Of a stretch of DNA of 21,564 nt, positions 1 through 9,561 are shown in pieces. The stretch is from a virus. How positions within the stretch are numbered: the stretch's first letter is position 1; the number at the start of each line of letters is the position of its first letter. Location: IMG/VR virus record IMGVR_UViG_3300025890_000184, positions 1 through 21,564 of that record; one strand, 5' to 3'. The notes under the pieces are model-generated. The model was given only the letters and a program-made list of their open reading frames with translations, was not told the DNA's origin and ran no database searches. The position numbers and the translations under genes were made by a program.

Positions 1-3000
1 TTGTAATTGTTATTGCACCATTATTACCATCTTGCCTTAGATGTATTAATTCATTGTCCATTGAAGCATTTTCAGCAATAACACTAACAAGTGGATTTGC
101 GGTAGCTGCCGCATTTGAGTATATCTCTAATGCTTTATCACCTGAATTAGACGTATCTATGTAAACGGCTGGTGTATCATAATCATCATGGTCAATGTGT
201 ATTGCCGTTCTATCATCTGAATATATCGATAGTGTAGCAGTATTTTCAATGTTTGATGAGTGTCCACCAAAAATTGACATTTTTTCAAATACTTCAAGTT
301 TGTCCTCTACACGAGCTTTACTTGATTCTAACCTACCAAACGAACCTGTTGAGGTTGATGAACCACTTATTGTGTTTCCAATAAAGGTATGTGTATCATC
401 AGCACTATCACCAAATACCGTAGAACCGCTTTTTTCAGCAACAGTTAAGTTTGTTACTGAAGAACTTACTATTAATTCTTGTGCAGTTAATGTTCCTGTA
501 ACATTTACATCACCTGTTACTCCTAATGTTGAACCATCAAAAGTTAGATTAGCCTCTGCAGTTCCTGTATTATCACCGTCCGAAGTTATTATTCTATTAG
601 CACCATCACTAGCCAATGGTATAAGTCCAGTTACTCCTTGTAAACCTTGAATACCTTGTAAGCCTTGAATTCCTTGAACACCTTGAGCACCATCAGAACC
701 ATCGGAACCAGTAGTTCCTTGAGTTCCTTTTATACCTTGTACACCTTGGATTCCTTGTATACCTTGGGCACCGATTGTACCTTGAATTCCTTTGATACCC
801 TGTAGCCCTTGGATTCCTTGAACACCTTGCGAACCAGTGGAACCAGTATCTCCAGTAGTTCCTTGAGTTCCTTTTGTGCCTTGTATCCCCTTTATTCCTT
901 GTAACCCTTGTATTCCTTGAACACCCTGTGAACCAGTAGAACCAGTATTTCCTGTAGTTCCTTGTGTTCCGTTTGTTCCTTGAATACCTTTTATTCCTTG
1001 TAAGCCTTGAATTCCTTGTAATCCTTGAATGCCTTGAGCACCAGTTGTACCTTGAGTACCGATTGTACCTTGAATTCCTTTGATACCTTGTATACCCTGA
1101 ACACCTTGGGAACCAGTACCACCAGTAGAGCCAGTGGTTCCTTGTGTTCCGTTTGTTCCTTGAATACCTTTTATTCCTTGTAAGCCTTGTACACCTTGAA
1201 TTCCTTGTATTCCTTGAGTACCAGTCGAACCAGTTGTACCTTGAGTTCCACTTATTCCTTGAATACCTTGTACACCTTGGCTACCAGTACCACCAGTAGA
1301 ACCAGTTGTACCTTGAATACCTAACGTACCTTGTATACCTAACGTACCTTGTATACCCTTTATTCCTTGTAGGCCTTGGATTCCTTGTAAGCCTTGTATT
1401 CCTTGGACACCTTGCGAACCAGTACTTCCTGTAGTTCCTTGAGTTCCTTTTATACCTTGTACACCTTGAACTCCTGTATCTCCTTTATCACCAGTCCTTG
1501 CGAATGTGACTATTATATCTTCATCATTACTGAATGGAGAAGCAGCTGATGAATCTACTACTGAGATTACAATCGTATGCCATCCTGTATTGTCGGTTTC
1601 ACTTGCTATAGTACCTAATATAAATTGACTACTGTCAGTCTTATTTGAAATCTTTACATGACCTTTTATTGTAGAAGTTGAAGCATCAATTGTTGCAAGA
1701 TAACTTGATATGTCTGTACCATTGACATCTTCTTCATCTATGTATATATTAGTAGCACCATTTTGTGTAGAATTATTTAGTCTGAGTTTACCACTTCCTG
1801 GATCTGATGTAGTTGTTGTTGTACTGAAGTCGTATTCGAATGTCGCACCACCAAAGTTACCTTCAACTCCTTGTATACCTTGTAAGCCTTGAATTCCTTG
1901 TACGCCTTGAGAACCAGTGGAACCAGTAGTTCCTTGAGTACCAATTATACCTTGAGTTCCAATTGTTCCTTGAATTCCTTTGATTCCTTGTAAACCTTGT
2001 AGTCCTTGTAAGCCTTGGATTCCTTGTACGCCTTGCGAACCAGTACTTCCTGTAGTTCCCTGCGTTCCAATCGTACCTTGTACGCCTTTAATACCTTGTA
2101 AGCCTTGAATTCCTTGTATTCCTTGAGTACCAGTTGAACCAGTAGTTCCTTGAGTTCCTTTGATACCTTGTAAGCCTTGAATTCCTTGAACACCCTGCGA
2201 ACCAGTAGAACCAGTAGTTCCTTGTGTACCGATTAATCCTTGTATTCCTTGTAAGCCTTGAATTCCTTGTAAGCCTTGAATTCCTTGTATACCTTGGGTT
2301 CCTGTAGTTCCAGTAGTTCCTTGAGTTCCGTTTGTACCTTGAGTTCCAATTATTCCTTGTATTCCTTGAATACCTTGAGAGCCTGTAGAACCAGTAGAAC
2401 CAGTAGTTCCTTGTGTACCAATTATACCTTGTAAGCCAGTTGTACCCTGAATACCCTTTATACCTTGTAATCCTTGAATTCCTTGTACACCTTGAGTACC
2501 AGTCGAACCAGTTGTACCTTGAGTTCCGACTAATCCTTGTATTCCTTGTAAGCCTTGAATTCCTTGTATACCTTGAGTTCCAGCACCAGTTGTACCTTGT
2601 GTACCAATTGTACCTTGTATACCGATTATACCTTGAGTACCAGCACCAGTTGTACCTTGTGAACCTACACCTGAAGCTCCTTGTACACCTTGAGAACCAG
2701 CAGGTCCTGTTCCTCCAGTACCACCAGTGCCACCAGTAGTTCCTTGAGTTCCAGCACCAGTTGTACCCTGCGTACCGATTATACCTTGTAGTCCTTGAAT
2801 TCCTTGAATTCCTTGTAAACCTTGTACGCCTTGAATTCCTTGAGTTCCGTTTGTACCTTGAGTTCCAATTATTCCTTGTAAGCCTTGAATTCCCTGTACA
2901 CCTTGTACTCCTTGAGAACCTGTAGAACCAGTCGTACCCTGAGTTCCTTTTGTGCCTTGTATCCCTTTTATTCCTTGTAAGCCTTGTATGCCTTGAATTC

Positions 3001-4951
3001 CTTGACTACCAGTCGAACCAGTTGTACCTTGAGTTCCTTTTATTCCTTGCAATCCTTGCAATCCTTGTATACCTTGCGTACCAGTTGTACCCTGCGTTCC
3101 AGTTATTCCTTGAATTCCTTGAGCACCAATATTACCAGTTGTACCTTGAGTTCCACTTGCACCTTGTGTACCTTGAACGCCACGTATACCTTGTAAACCT
3201 TGTAATCCTTGTAAGCCTTGAATACCTTGAGTTCCTTGAATTCCACTTATACCTTGTAAGCCTTGAATTCCTTGTAATCCTTGAATACCTTGTGTACCTT
3301 GAGTTCCTATCAATCCTTGTATTCCTTGAACACCTTGAGTACCAGTATCTCCTTTATCACCAGTTCTTGCGAATGTAACTATTATATCTTCTGTGTTGCT
3401 GAAAGGGTTGGTATCAGATGAATCAACAGCACTTACTGTAATGTCGAAGTAACCAGTATTTTCCGTTAGACTTGCTATAGTAAATAATAAGAACTGACTA
3501 CTATCGGTTTTATTTGAGATTTTTACATGACCTTTTAAAGTAGAAGTTGAGTCGTCTATAGTTCGTAAATAATTTTGTATATCATTACCACCGACATCAG
3601 TATCGTCTATAAAAATACTAGCAGCACTGTTCTGTGTGGCATTGTCTAATCGTAGTTTACCAGTACCAGGATCAGCATCAGCTGTCGTAGTATCAAAGTC
3701 ATATTCAAAAGTAGCACCACCAAAGTTACCTTCTATACCCTGTATACCTTGGACACCTTGAGTTCCAGTTGTTCCCTGTGTACCAGTTGTACCTTGAGTT
3801 CCGATTAATCCTTGTATTCCTTGTAAGCCTTGAATTCCTTGTAATCCTTGAATTCCTTGTATACCTTGAGTTCCAGTTGTTCCTTGAGTACCATTCGTAC
3901 CTTGTATACCCTTTATACCTTGTATACCTTGGACGCCAATTGTACCTTGAGTACCGATTGTACCTTGAGTACCAGTTATTCCTTGTATTCCTTGAACACC
4001 CTGTAAACCAGTATTACCAGTTGTACCTTGAGTACCAATTATACCTTGAGTACCAGTTGTTCCTTGTACACCAATTGTACCTTGAGTTCCGATTAATCCT
4101 TGTATTCCTTGTAAGCCTTGAATTCCTTGTATACCTTGAATTCCTTGTACACCTTGAGCACCAACTGTACCTTGTGTACCAATTGTACCTTGAGTTCCAG
4201 TACTTCCTGTAGTTCCTTGTGTTCCAGCACCAGTTGTTCCTTGAGTACCGATACTACCTAAAGTTCCTTGCGTTCCAGTAGTTCCTTGTGTTCCAGCACC
4301 ATCAACACCTTGAGCACCATCAGTTCCTTGCGTACCAGTTCCACCACTAACACCTTGAACTCCAGCACCAACAGCACCTTGAGTTCCATCAGTTCCTTGT
4401 GTACCAGTTCCACCAACACTACCAGTAGTACCCTGCGTACCAGCACCTGTAGCACCTTGTGTACCTTGAGTTCCATCTAATCCTTGTATACCTTGTAAGC
4501 CTTGAATTCCTTGTATACCTTGAGCACCAGTATTACCTGAAGCACCTTGAGCACCTGTCGTACCTAATGTACCTTGTGTACCATTTAATCCTTGAATTCC
4601 TTGTGTACCTTGCGTACCAGTTGAGATATTTGTTAGTCCACTACCATCACCTACAAATGAACCAGTAAAACTAGAACCAGTAACTCCTGTTGAAGTTGAG
4701 AAATCTACATTTGATTGTGATACGATAAGACTGCCTGTTATAATAGCAGAACCTGAAAATGGAAATCCTGCTCCACTACCAGCACTAGCCAATGATTCGG
4801 AAGTAAATGTACCACCACCGATTTTTATTTGTCCAAATGAACCAGTTGATAATGCGGAACCACTTAGTTCACCATCTACCTGCAAGCTTCCGCTTATAGT
4901 AAATGAACCTGTAAAATTTGGATCTAAATGTTTAGACTTTAGTAATGCCAT
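1..4951 (-). CDS. Giant collagen-like phage fibre protein (partial, 3' end outside window)
   Basis: An open frame runs leftwards from ATG at 4951 to the window edge, 1650 codons without a stop. Residues 1-109 are a Gly/Ser-rich head ([26 protein letters not shown]) typical of phage fibre attachment regions. Three blocks of Gly-X-Y triplets follow, about 360 in all, dominated by [12 protein letters not shown] and GTT. They are separated by two copies of a roughly 125-residue non-collagen domain. After about position 620 comes a non-repetitive region ([18 protein letters not shown], then [19 protein letters not shown]) that continues beyond the window. Phage collagen-like proteins form trimeric rods in tail or side fibres; a receptor-binding role is inferred. 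The start overlaps the upstream zinc-ribbon ORF by 20 bases and has only a weak purine-rich AAGAAG ahead of it, so translational coupling is likely. The real C-terminus is not visible. Confidence 0.9.
622..1494 (-). repeat. Collagen block 3
   Basis: About 290 residues of Gly-X-Y triplets, including several GIK triplets. It ends at [18 protein letters not shown], where the non-repetitive distal region begins. Confidence 0.92.
1495..1872 (-). repeat. Inserted non-collagen module, copy B
   Basis: The second copy of the inserted domain. It begins [19 protein letters not shown], shares [15 protein letters not shown] with copy A, and ends [17 protein letters not shown]. It differs from copy A by a two-residue deletion near the start and scattered substitutions. 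The two copies lie about 1860 bases apart in the same frame. Confidence 0.88.
1873..3357 (-). repeat. Collagen block 2 (longest Gly-X-Y block)
   Basis: About 495 residues of Gly-X-Y repeats, mostly [12 protein letters not shown] with GST/GTT spacers. Near 2580-2760 it contains Gly-Ala-Gly and Gly-Val-Gly breaks and a run of GGT units. The only proline I found in the collagen region is in the triplet Gly-Pro-Ala at about 2699-2707. The DNA is dense in the sequence GAATTC because Gly-Ile-Gln is usually written GGA-ATT-CAA. Confidence 0.93.
3358..3736 (-). repeat. Inserted non-collagen module, copy A
   Basis: A roughly 125-residue globular insert in the collagen frame. It begins [20 protein letters not shown], contains [15 protein letters not shown], and ends [17 protein letters not shown], where the collagen repeats resume. 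It is clearly homologous to the segment at 1495-1872, with roughly two thirds of residues identical by eye. No known family was recognised. The conserved beta-rich pattern suggests a trimeric beta domain that restarts or orients the triple helix, which is an inference. Confidence 0.88.
3737..4623 (-). repeat. Collagen block 1 (N-terminal Gly-X-Y repeats)
   Basis: About 295 residues of Gly-X-Y triplets, encoded by an imperfect 9-base unit read as GGN-NNN-CAA on the minus strand. This block has the most varied composition (GTD, GAV, GSV, GLD) and several one-residue phase breaks of the form Gly-Ala-Gly, as in GATGAGTQG. The 9-base periodicity is obvious on the plus strand as recurring ccttgnat/acc. 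Confidence 0.93.
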
Positions 4952-5210
4952 GTCTTATATCTTCTTGTTTTTTATCAATCCACCACTTTCGAACAGAATG
5001 AGAAATTTTTCTTTTATGTTCATATGTTTTAGGTTGTTTCATTTTATCTAATGTCTCCATAGTAACTCTTCTATCCATTTGAGCACAAGACTTACAAACA
5101 GAATTATTTCCTACTGCCCTATCAAAAGAATCTTTTCTTGTATAGGTTAGTCTCTTACCACACTCCGGACAAGGTCTATTTTTCCTATCATTCCAATGAC
5201 GTTTTCTCAT
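4932..5210 (-). CDS. Small zinc-ribbon protein with NUMOD3-like tail, possible homing-endonuclease remnant
   Basis: A 92-residue basic protein from ATG at 5210 (a TTG at 5225 would add five residues). It carries two Cys pairs, C14-x-x-C17 (CPEC) and C39-x-x-C42 (CKSC), which form a four-cysteine zinc ribbon. Near residues 62-77 the segment [16 protein letters not shown] resembles the NUMOD3 DNA-binding repeat found in phage GIY-YIG and HNH homing endonucleases. I see no catalytic HNH or GIY-YIG motif, so it is either a stand-alone DNA-binding protein or the remnant of a homing enzyme. No Shine-Dalgarno site is visible upstream of either start. Its 3' end overlaps the first 20 bases of the collagen fibre gene. 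Free-standing homing genes often lie beside phage structural genes, which fits but does not prove the remnant idea. Confidence 0.65.
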
Positions 5211-5213
5211 ACA

Positions 5214-5221
5214 TATAAATA
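5214..5221 (-). promoter_or_regulatory. Intergenic octamer ATATTTAT, candidate late promoter
   Basis: A copy of the octamer between the gp15-like gene and the zinc-ribbon ORF. It lies only three bases before the ATG at 5210, so if it is a promoter the ORF would be leaderless, or the transcript would mainly serve the fibre gene at 4951. A very short inverted repeat with a T run (5230-5240) lies just upstream. Confidence 0.4.
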
Positions 5222-5249
5222 TCAAAAAATGGTAAAACCAATGTGGAAA

Positions 5250-8490: not shown

Positions 8491-9561
8491 CTAAACTCTT
8501 GTGATAAGTAAATTAGTTGTCCCATTACTTCCACTTATCAAAGAAGCACTTTGTCCTGTTTTTTTAGCACGTATTCTTAGTCTACTTTCGCTTGGAAAAT
8601 AACTAGCACAACTATACCCATAAGAATAGAAATCAGGTAAATCTGAAGAAAATGATAGGTTATGTAAACTGCCAGGTACTAAAATATAACTACTTCCTTT
8701 ATCAGTTGACTTTTCAGCTTTCATTTGAAGTCTGAAATCAGCACCATTTGCTTCTATAGAAGAATTCATATTGATTGTAAAGAAAGAATCTTCTTTGAAA
8801 GCAATATAAAAGTCATCACTTGTCCCATTTACATCATGTACATTAGTATAATTTGCTGATGATGTCAACTCTGGAGTAGCGTTGAATACTATTGTTTCGT
8901 CACTTGTACCTATATCTTGAGATGTCGCATTTAGTTTATATTGTACAGTTAAACCAGTACCAATACCCCCACCCTTTTCTATTGGTTGTATTCTTGAAGA
9001 TATAGACGAACTCATTTGAGTAACCGAGCCACTAATTACGTTTGCTGATAACGACCTTATCAATGCGGCATTAGAACCTAATGAGCCACTTATATCAGAA
9101 GCAATTTGTGATGAACCACTTATCAAAGTATTACCCAATTCAGATTCAGCAGTACTTATTCTTGTTGAAAATGAACCACTATCTGTTTTTAGATTTGTAA
9201 CCCTTGTTGAAAAACTAGAACTAGCCTGTATAAACGAACCACTTATATCAGAAGCAATCTGTGATGAACCACTTAAAGCACCACTAAATATTCCTGAAAA
9301 TGAACCACTAACTCCCGTAGTTTTTGTAAAATCTACATTAGAAGAAGATACGATAAGTGAACCAGTTATATAAGTATCTTCGGCAATATTTGATAAGAAC
9401 CCACCCTTTTGTCCTTGAGGACCTGTAGTAACAATATTGACTACTGATGTTTTAGTTATATTACGATCAACATTTCCATCAGATTTGATGATAGTGACAT
9501 TTTTATTGCTCGTACTAACACTAACATTGTTTGGTGAATTCGGAGTTATATCTACAGACAC
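8491..9561 (-). CDS. Trimeric fibre protein with short collagen tract and C1q/TNF-like head, in the wac (fibritin) position
   Basis: A protein of 356 residues. It has an N-terminal beta region, a single short collagen-like tract (GPQGQKGG, 47-54), then [19 protein letters not shown] (66-83), which recurs in the giant fibre. A Ser-rich coiled segment follows with a duplicated unit, SGSSQIASDISGS, at 97-109 and 148-160. The C-terminal 150 residues (FFTINMNSSIEANGADFRLQ, about 260-279; SESRLRIRAKK) look like a C1q/TNF-type jelly-roll trimer. The gene lies just before gp13-14-15-like genes, where T4 has wac (whisker fibritin), so a whisker or neck fibre is a reasonable guess. The start is GTG at 9561, six bases after AGGAG. 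An ATG at 9563 is out of frame and stops after three codons (ATG TGT CTG TAG). Confidence 0.7.
   Translation of the reverse strand: MSVDITPNSPNNVSVSTSNKNVTIIKSDGNVDRNITKTSVVNIVTTGPQGQKGGFLSNIAEDTYITGSLIVSSSNVDFTKTTGVSGSFSGIFSGALSGSSQIASDISGSFIQASSSFSTRVTNLKTDSGSFSTRISTAESELGNTLISGSSQIASDISGSLGSNAALIRSLSANVISGSVTQMSSSISSRIQPIEKGGGIGTGLTVQYKLNATSQDIGTSDETIVFNATPELTSSANYTNVHDVNGTSDDFYIAFKEDSFFTINMNSSIEANGADFRLQMKAEKSTDKGSSYILVPGSLHNLSFSSDLPDFYSYGYSCASYFPSESRLRIRAKKTGQSASLISGSNGTTNLLITRV

Follow-up and report, generated by a model that had tools for sequence, protein, structure and literature searches.

The virus record IMGVR_UViG_3300025890_000184, whose entire 21,564 bases form the window analysed here, comes from part of the genome of an uncultured T4-like phage of bacteria, and it carries a minus-strand gene for a giant collagen-like fibre that represents a proline-free variant common in uncultured phages. 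The most probable reading, held with some reserve, is that this gene specifies a long tail or side fibre whose stalk would be a proline-free collagen helix seeded at clamp domains. More tentatively, it is quite possible that such fibres are true triple helices that run for hundreds of nanometres and contain virtually no proline and few charges; repeated trimeric clamp domains would hold them together and seed their folding through a Lys-Gly-Asp pair.

An original prediction, made from the letters alone, had described about 360 Gly-X-Y triplets in one frame of at least 1650 codons, with X and Y dominated by Gln, Thr, Ile, Leu and Val, a single Gly-Pro-Ala and few charged residues, and all of these points held on recounting. 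In the frame at 2-4951, runs of four or more triplets number 10 and together hold exactly 360 triplets, the longest run having 97, whereas 200 residue shuffles of the same protein gave at most 58 triplets in total and no run longer than nine. This long uninterrupted repeat is the hallmark of collagen-like proteins, and PF01391 (Collagen) matched the fibre with E 1.5e-148 over 12 stretches in a Pfam search. The X position is occupied by T114, I99, L44, S32, V31, A19, G9, N6, D5 and P1, and the Y position by Q210, T67, I23 and K19 followed by rarer residues, so that one Pro and 33 charged residues are found across 720 X/Y positions; coordinate arithmetic places the sole Gly-Pro-Ala at residues 749-751, nucleotides 2699-2707. 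Proline in X and charge in X/Y, which are typical though not defining of viral collagens, are nearly lacking here: Table 4 of PMC3368898 gives other viral collagens 22.1% Pro and 35.3% Asp/Glu at X and 38.1% Arg/Lys at Y, as against 0.3%, 1.4% and 5.6%, respectively, in the window fibre, and the claim of a giant phage fibre nearly without proline and charge thus stands. If triple-helical, the 360 triplets would give a stalk of about 311 nm, using the predicted height of 0.288 nm per residue from PMC3368898.

The periodicity of glycine was further examined through its codons and interruptions. Gly codons of the window repeat are mixed (GGT185, GGA139, GGC32, GGG4), and part of this variety may have been copied along with longer repeat units. 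Neighbouring tracts in the window are separated by no in-phase Gly replacement; the short interruptions, eight when counted by eye, each lack one residue (Gly-Ala-Gly or Gly-Val-Gly). Across 19 hand-picked open reading frames (ORFs), with breaks of up to 12 residues covered, 18 phase-keeping breaks between neighbouring tracts were counted in 7414 triplets, none of them in the window. Because in-phase breaks are few despite the mixed codons, selection that keeps every third residue a Gly is favoured over recent slippage. It should be noted that related contigs (for example L197, L219, L241 and L243) recur in the ORF sets.

The position of the gene points to a tail structure. The main genes of the window all lie on the minus strand, and the fibre gene is the last of them, leaving the contig at position 2. 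It sits within a tail and neck gene block of a tailed phage, next to a T4 gp15-like gene and together with a head-tail adaptor-like protein (phrog_211) and a major head protein (phrog_138) matched in a PHROG search; inspection of the translations by eye suggested terminase, portal and prohead protease genes as well. The closest relatives of the capsid protein, at 43-53% identity, are the tailed phages LR756508, Mel-JY01, immuto and RM378. Since the fibre gene neighbours a tail-sheath stabiliser gene in a T4-like phage, the collagen-like product is most likely a tail or side fibre, predicted to be present in the virion and to bind the host.

The stalk is divided by two copies of an inserted domain of about 120 residues, 73% identical to each other, and a profile built on it retrieved 205 copies in 92 Gly-X-Y ORFs from the window and the fetched loci. 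The window copy had no Pfam match; among 36 members, two DUF families were matched weakly by one member each, and 14 members matched phrog_35140 (function unknown). AlphaFold2 modelled the domain confidently as mainly beta with one longer helix (Table 1). A sequence search of the PDB gave no match, and Foldseek of the model against the PDB gave none at E 0.001 or better; the best VIA-align hit (Z 6.1, 89 residues, 3.1 A, Sf11 phage tail) was level with an unrelated helicase and may reflect only a common arrangement. In view of this weak PDB similarity, a new fold is not claimed. In a viral structure library, 47 matches reached E 0.001 or better, many of them annotated "Collagen triple helix repeat" and some from giant viruses, including a Marseillevirus LCMAC102 protein with a query template modelling score of 0.92 and 41% identity. 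By sequence, the window copy matched five records of a phage collection and the copy from locus L232 matched 11 (at a looser threshold, with duplicates of one genome counted), while tblastn with the whole fibre returned four records, all matching at the inserted domain, BLAST masking repeats. One close-relative pattern scan of bacterial and archaeal genomes found no relative of the domain, which is weak evidence of absence. The domain also sits in fibres with 20-41% Pro.

Several records show further peculiarities around this domain. In Pelagibacter phage HTVC010P (L251 4065-5937), the fibre coding sequence seems to leave its frame within a short Gly-X-Y tract, an apparent frameshift that is either a sequencing artefact or real, and a third copy of the domain lies in the next coding sequence, giving three places in that record. 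Loci L231, L234 and L237 each hold a tandem pair of large Ser/Thr-type Gly-X-Y ORFs that share one reading frame, with only the length of a stop codon separating them; inserted domains occur in both frames of L231 and L234 and in the second frame only of L237.

The passage from inserted domain to repeat carries a distinctive motif. After dropping duplicates and ORFs with fewer than 20 triplets, which kept 98 of 125 ORFs, [KR]G[DE] was found at 97 of 142 distinct junctions and at 138 of 18,153 steps inside tracts, a count that includes the junctions, and the only two occurrences in the window fibre fall exactly on its two domain-to-repeat junctions. The Lys-Gly-Asp pair forms strong interchain salt bridges in triple helices. 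Peptidase-S74, a chaperone that trimerises its chain, was recognised (PF13884) at the C-termini of 11 of 20 relatives, which were hand-picked after reading and so do not give a rate. Both observations lend support to the earlier suggestion that the inserted domains may act as clamps. In the 35 proline-free ORFs, Lys/Arg stands at Y in 127 of 142 cases and Ile/Leu/Val at X in 958 of 1161; a preference of Lys/Arg for Y is also described for known collagens (PMC3368898).

The extent of proline-free fibres among related viruses was surveyed by locus scans, with at most 80 loci each and counts among the matches listed. For kin of the gp15-like protein, 77 of the 80 loci were used, leaving out three with cut-off matches, and 70 of these have at least 2 kb downstream, of which up to 10 kb was seen; six of the 70 carry a Gly-X-Y fibre ORF, all six with at most 0.2% Pro, and most of the loci have other proteins at that place. 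Of these, L023 and L024 appear to be near-duplicates of each other, which leaves about five independent cases. Their repeats are worded in different dialects, namely GTQ/GIQ in L015, GGT/GTG/GAT in L018, L023, L024 and L025, and GTQ/GST/GTT in L078. Closest of all is contig L012 (together with L230 and L212, which are pieces of one contig); it has a 95% identical gp15-like protein, the same gene order, a proline-free Gln-rich tract and copies of the inserted domain. Among kin of the capsid protein, five of 79 loci hold a Gly-X-Y ORF of at least 12 triplets, four without proline and one (L108) with 15%. For viral loci sharing the inserted domain, 110 plus-strand ORFs were reduced to 87 by dropping identical N-termini and then to the largest Gly-X-Y ORF per locus; the Pro share in X/Y of the resulting 64 loci is below 1% in 21, 1-5% in six, 5-20% in 12 and at least 20% in 25. 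The counts exclude minus-strand "GPV" ORFs, which arise as mirror frames of GPT tracts. A pattern scan ([10 protein letters not shown]) returned at least 120 stretches, and of the 80 of these that were analysed, 79 had a Gly-X-Y ORF, with Pro below 1% in 26, at 1-5% in 25, at 5-20% in 23 and above that in five. A candidate trend towards longer fibres when proline-free was dropped (triplet number versus Pro share, Spearman -0.15, P = 0.38, 38 complete ORFs).

These counts qualify the exceptional status that the original prediction gave to the fibre. It does differ from the viral collagens of the literature; all six fibres next to gp15 kin are proline-free too, and 21 of the 64 domain-sharing loci have a Pro share below 1%. 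The prediction had named as evidence against itself a survey in which Gln/Thr/Ile-rich, proline-free tracts prove the norm of the phage family; the counts bear this out in part, lack of proline being common in uncultured phages and the Gln/Thr/Ile wording being one of several dialects. A literature search by title and start of abstract among the top-listed papers, with subscription journals mostly outside it, found no paper on proline-free phage collagens. The named relatives were read in part, covering Mel-JY01 outside 1-5001, immuto 2-6A outside 100001-106901 and 148504-160410, and a small part of LR756508: Mel-JY01 shows only GSS/GTS stretches of seven and 12 triplets, both containing two prolines; a single stretch of six triplets was seen in immuto 2-6A, and none in the small part of LR756508. 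An annotated prolyl 4-hydroxylase (L377 6570-7169) is present in Mel-JY01, whose capsid protein is the nearest among named isolates, though only these short stretches occur in the parts read.

Taken together, a model can be proposed in which the N-terminal module would attach the fibre to the tail and a homotrimeric stalk of three Gly-X-Y blocks would extend for at least about 300 nm, as estimated from the 360 triplets. The two small beta-rich inserted domains would probably trimerise and keep the three chains in register; each block after an inserted domain starts with Gly-Asp-Lys-Gly-Asp, and folding could be seeded at these clamps and then propagate through a Gln-rich collagen helix without proline, whose modest stability may be enough at host temperature. 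The distal end probably bears receptor-binding modules and perhaps a peptidase-S74 chaperone trimerising the chain, as in some relatives.

A number of observations weigh against this model and lend themselves to other readings. Asp favours Y in the proline-free set (424 versus 220), contrary to known collagens. On a rough stability score using host-guest values, with a guessed value for Pro at Y, the order as written exceeded the X/Y-swapped order in 29 of 29 proline-rich tracts and in only 16 of 32 proline-free tracts, which is chance, the window scoring a neutral +0.12. Peptidase-S74 was not found at nine of the 20 hand-picked C-termini, the repeat itself largely accounts for the tail-fibre PHROG and Pfam matches, and isolates that have hardly any repeat, or none (HTVC010P, DMCA, cta39025 and S-H34), also contain the inserted domain, which is therefore not bound to collagen. 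Given the missing X/Y optimisation, the Asp at Y and the moderate dependence of Pro share on GC content, the proline-free tracts may form weak helices that clamps maintain at low temperature, or may in part not be helical. The missing X/Y optimisation, along with the near absence of proline and charge pairs and the resemblance of the related dialects GSS/GTS and GGT to flexible linkers, would suit a largely disordered tether, made soluble and far-reaching by Gly at every third place and small polar partners, with trimers confined to the globular modules. We regard such a tether as unlikely, since Gly is kept every third place despite varied codons and with few phase-keeping breaks, Ile, Leu or Val makes up 174 of the 360 X residues of the window, which would be odd if exposed, and [KR]G[DE] stands at block starts.

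A third possibility keeps the order of the stalk and changes its packing. S16-type adhesins are built of short antiparallel Gly-rich helices joined by turns, an arrangement to which runs of up to 97 triplets without a turn are ill suited. A polyproline/polyglycine-II organisation, either a packed bundle of this type or an untwisted triple helix, is quite improbable here, even though kin L018, L024 and L025 use Gly-rich dialects with Gly at X and untwisted polyproline-II assemblies exist, the S16 long tail fibre included (PMC11869133). It is possible, if somewhat doubtful, that the fibre is an ordinary collagen from which proline was lost through an AT-rich base composition or drift of the repeats; nothing special would then stabilise it, and low temperature would spare proline; this is a milder form of the clamp-seeded helix, and both can hold together. 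Proline-free fibres are common, as this would have it, and the Pro share correlates with how GC-rich the flanking DNA is (60 loci without correction for relatedness, Spearman 0.41, P = 0.001), yet DNA of about 33-40% GC has both kinds of fibre (L233 at 0.327 with 22% Pro, L219 at 0.335 with 0.2%), and the dialects are sharply different and each internally uniform. Many contigs end within such genes, as misassembly of repeats would produce, but an assembly artefact is very improbable: the second contig (L012, L230 and L212) has its genes in the same order, its fibre N-terminus is 85% identical and its proline-free tracts also contain domain copies, and the fibre frame is open throughout.

Table 1. 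Layout of the collagen-like fibre gene and its tail-gene neighbour in the window.
Feature	Position	Strand	Basis
Collagen-like fibre gene, 1650 codons, ATG at 4951, 3' end cut off by contig end	2..4951	-	open frame without stop, PF01391, triplet count, tail-fibre PHROGs
N-terminal non-repeat module, residues 1-111	4619..4951	-	85% identity over 81 residues to fibre of closest relative contig L012
Gly-X-Y block 1, residues 112-413; four one-residue (G1G) interruptions	3713..4618	-	triplet count
Inserted domain copy 1, residues 411-534	3350..3721	-	profile search; AlphaFold2 predicted local distance difference test (pLDDT) 92.2, predicted template modelling score (pTM) 0.86
Gly-X-Y block 2, residues 531-1036; starts GDKGDTG; only Gly-Pro-Ala (2699-2707); four one-residue interruptions	1844..3361	-	triplet count, junction count
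Inserted domain copy 2, residues 1034-1158	1478..1852	-	profile search
Gly-X-Y block 3, residues 1154-1444; starts GDKGDTG; 97 unbroken triplets	620..1492	-	triplet count, junction count
Distal non-repeat region, residues 1445-1650	2..619	-	sequence match to L018
Tail sheath stabiliser, T4 gp15-like, 513 residues	5250..6791	-	PF16724 (Pfam), PHROG; structural neighbour of the fibre gene

The distal region extends the comparison to a fibre of different wording. The last 111 residues of the window fibre are 95% identical to the middle of the L018 fibre, which has a wholly different Gly-X-Y dialect, and the contig of L018 was the one contig matched when the distal 110 residues were used as query. 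It appears from this that repeat dialects and modules have evidently been exchanged independently. After the shared segment, L018 continues with another Gly-X-Y block and then the peptidase-S74 chaperone, and the window fibre may therefore be longer still.

Neighbouring ORFs were also inspected. Between the gp15-like gene and the fibre lies a 97-residue zinc-ribbon-like ORF (4932-5225, minus strand) with two CxxC pairs and a weak Lar-like match (phrog_6422, E 0.00096); a closely similar ORF, judged by eye, is present in L012. The gp15-like protein is long, and at L012 5446-5577, near its C-terminus in that relative, a match to the distal region of the fibre (50% over 44 residues) suggests a module common to tail proteins. 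In a neighbouring structural ORF without a family match (8491-9561, minus strand), GPQGQKG occurs once, and a motif there, [14 protein letters not shown], closely resembles [14 protein letters not shown] from the N-terminal region of the fibre.

The stability of collagen is usually credited to proline, hydroxyproline and charge pairs, and this natural set could test that view directly. Viral fibres that have one inserted domain in common and 0 to about 41% Pro in their stalks would, if the reading is true, amount to nature's experiment on what collagen needs, and could be a possible source of proline-free, unmodified collagen-like materials. The confidently predicted inserted domain, which joins collagen proteins of phages and giant viruses, merits a name and a structure.

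Among known systems, the side-tail proteins EPclA and EPclB of E. coli O157:H7 prophages are likewise phage tail proteins in which a Gly-X-Y stalk is flanked by globular and trimerisation domains at the ends, and for EPclA a triple helix by circular dichroism and dumbbell particles by electron microscopy are described (PMC3368898). They differ in having 48.1% Pro and 35.6% Asp/Glu at X and 31.0% Arg/Lys at Y (same source), against the far lower values of the window fibre given above; their end domains are also different, and the window stalk has the inserted domain. Among peptidase-S74 (endosialidase chaperone) fibres, the proline-free relatives L018 (about 2700 residues) and L024 end in PF13884, whereas the window contig ends before the C-terminus, where this domain may be present by analogy. 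The isolate Actinomycetia phage DSL-LC01 has both the inserted domain and Gly-X-Y tracts, but its three ORFs hold 23-39% Pro in X/Y and are mostly GPT/GAT. Giant viruses infect eukaryotes, and their "Collagen triple helix repeat" proteins (Marseillevirus LCMAC102, Indivirus and Klosneuvirus), like those of uncultured Caudovirales and Synechococcus phage S-CAM7, have the same inserted-domain fold as the window fibre, the comparison covering this domain.

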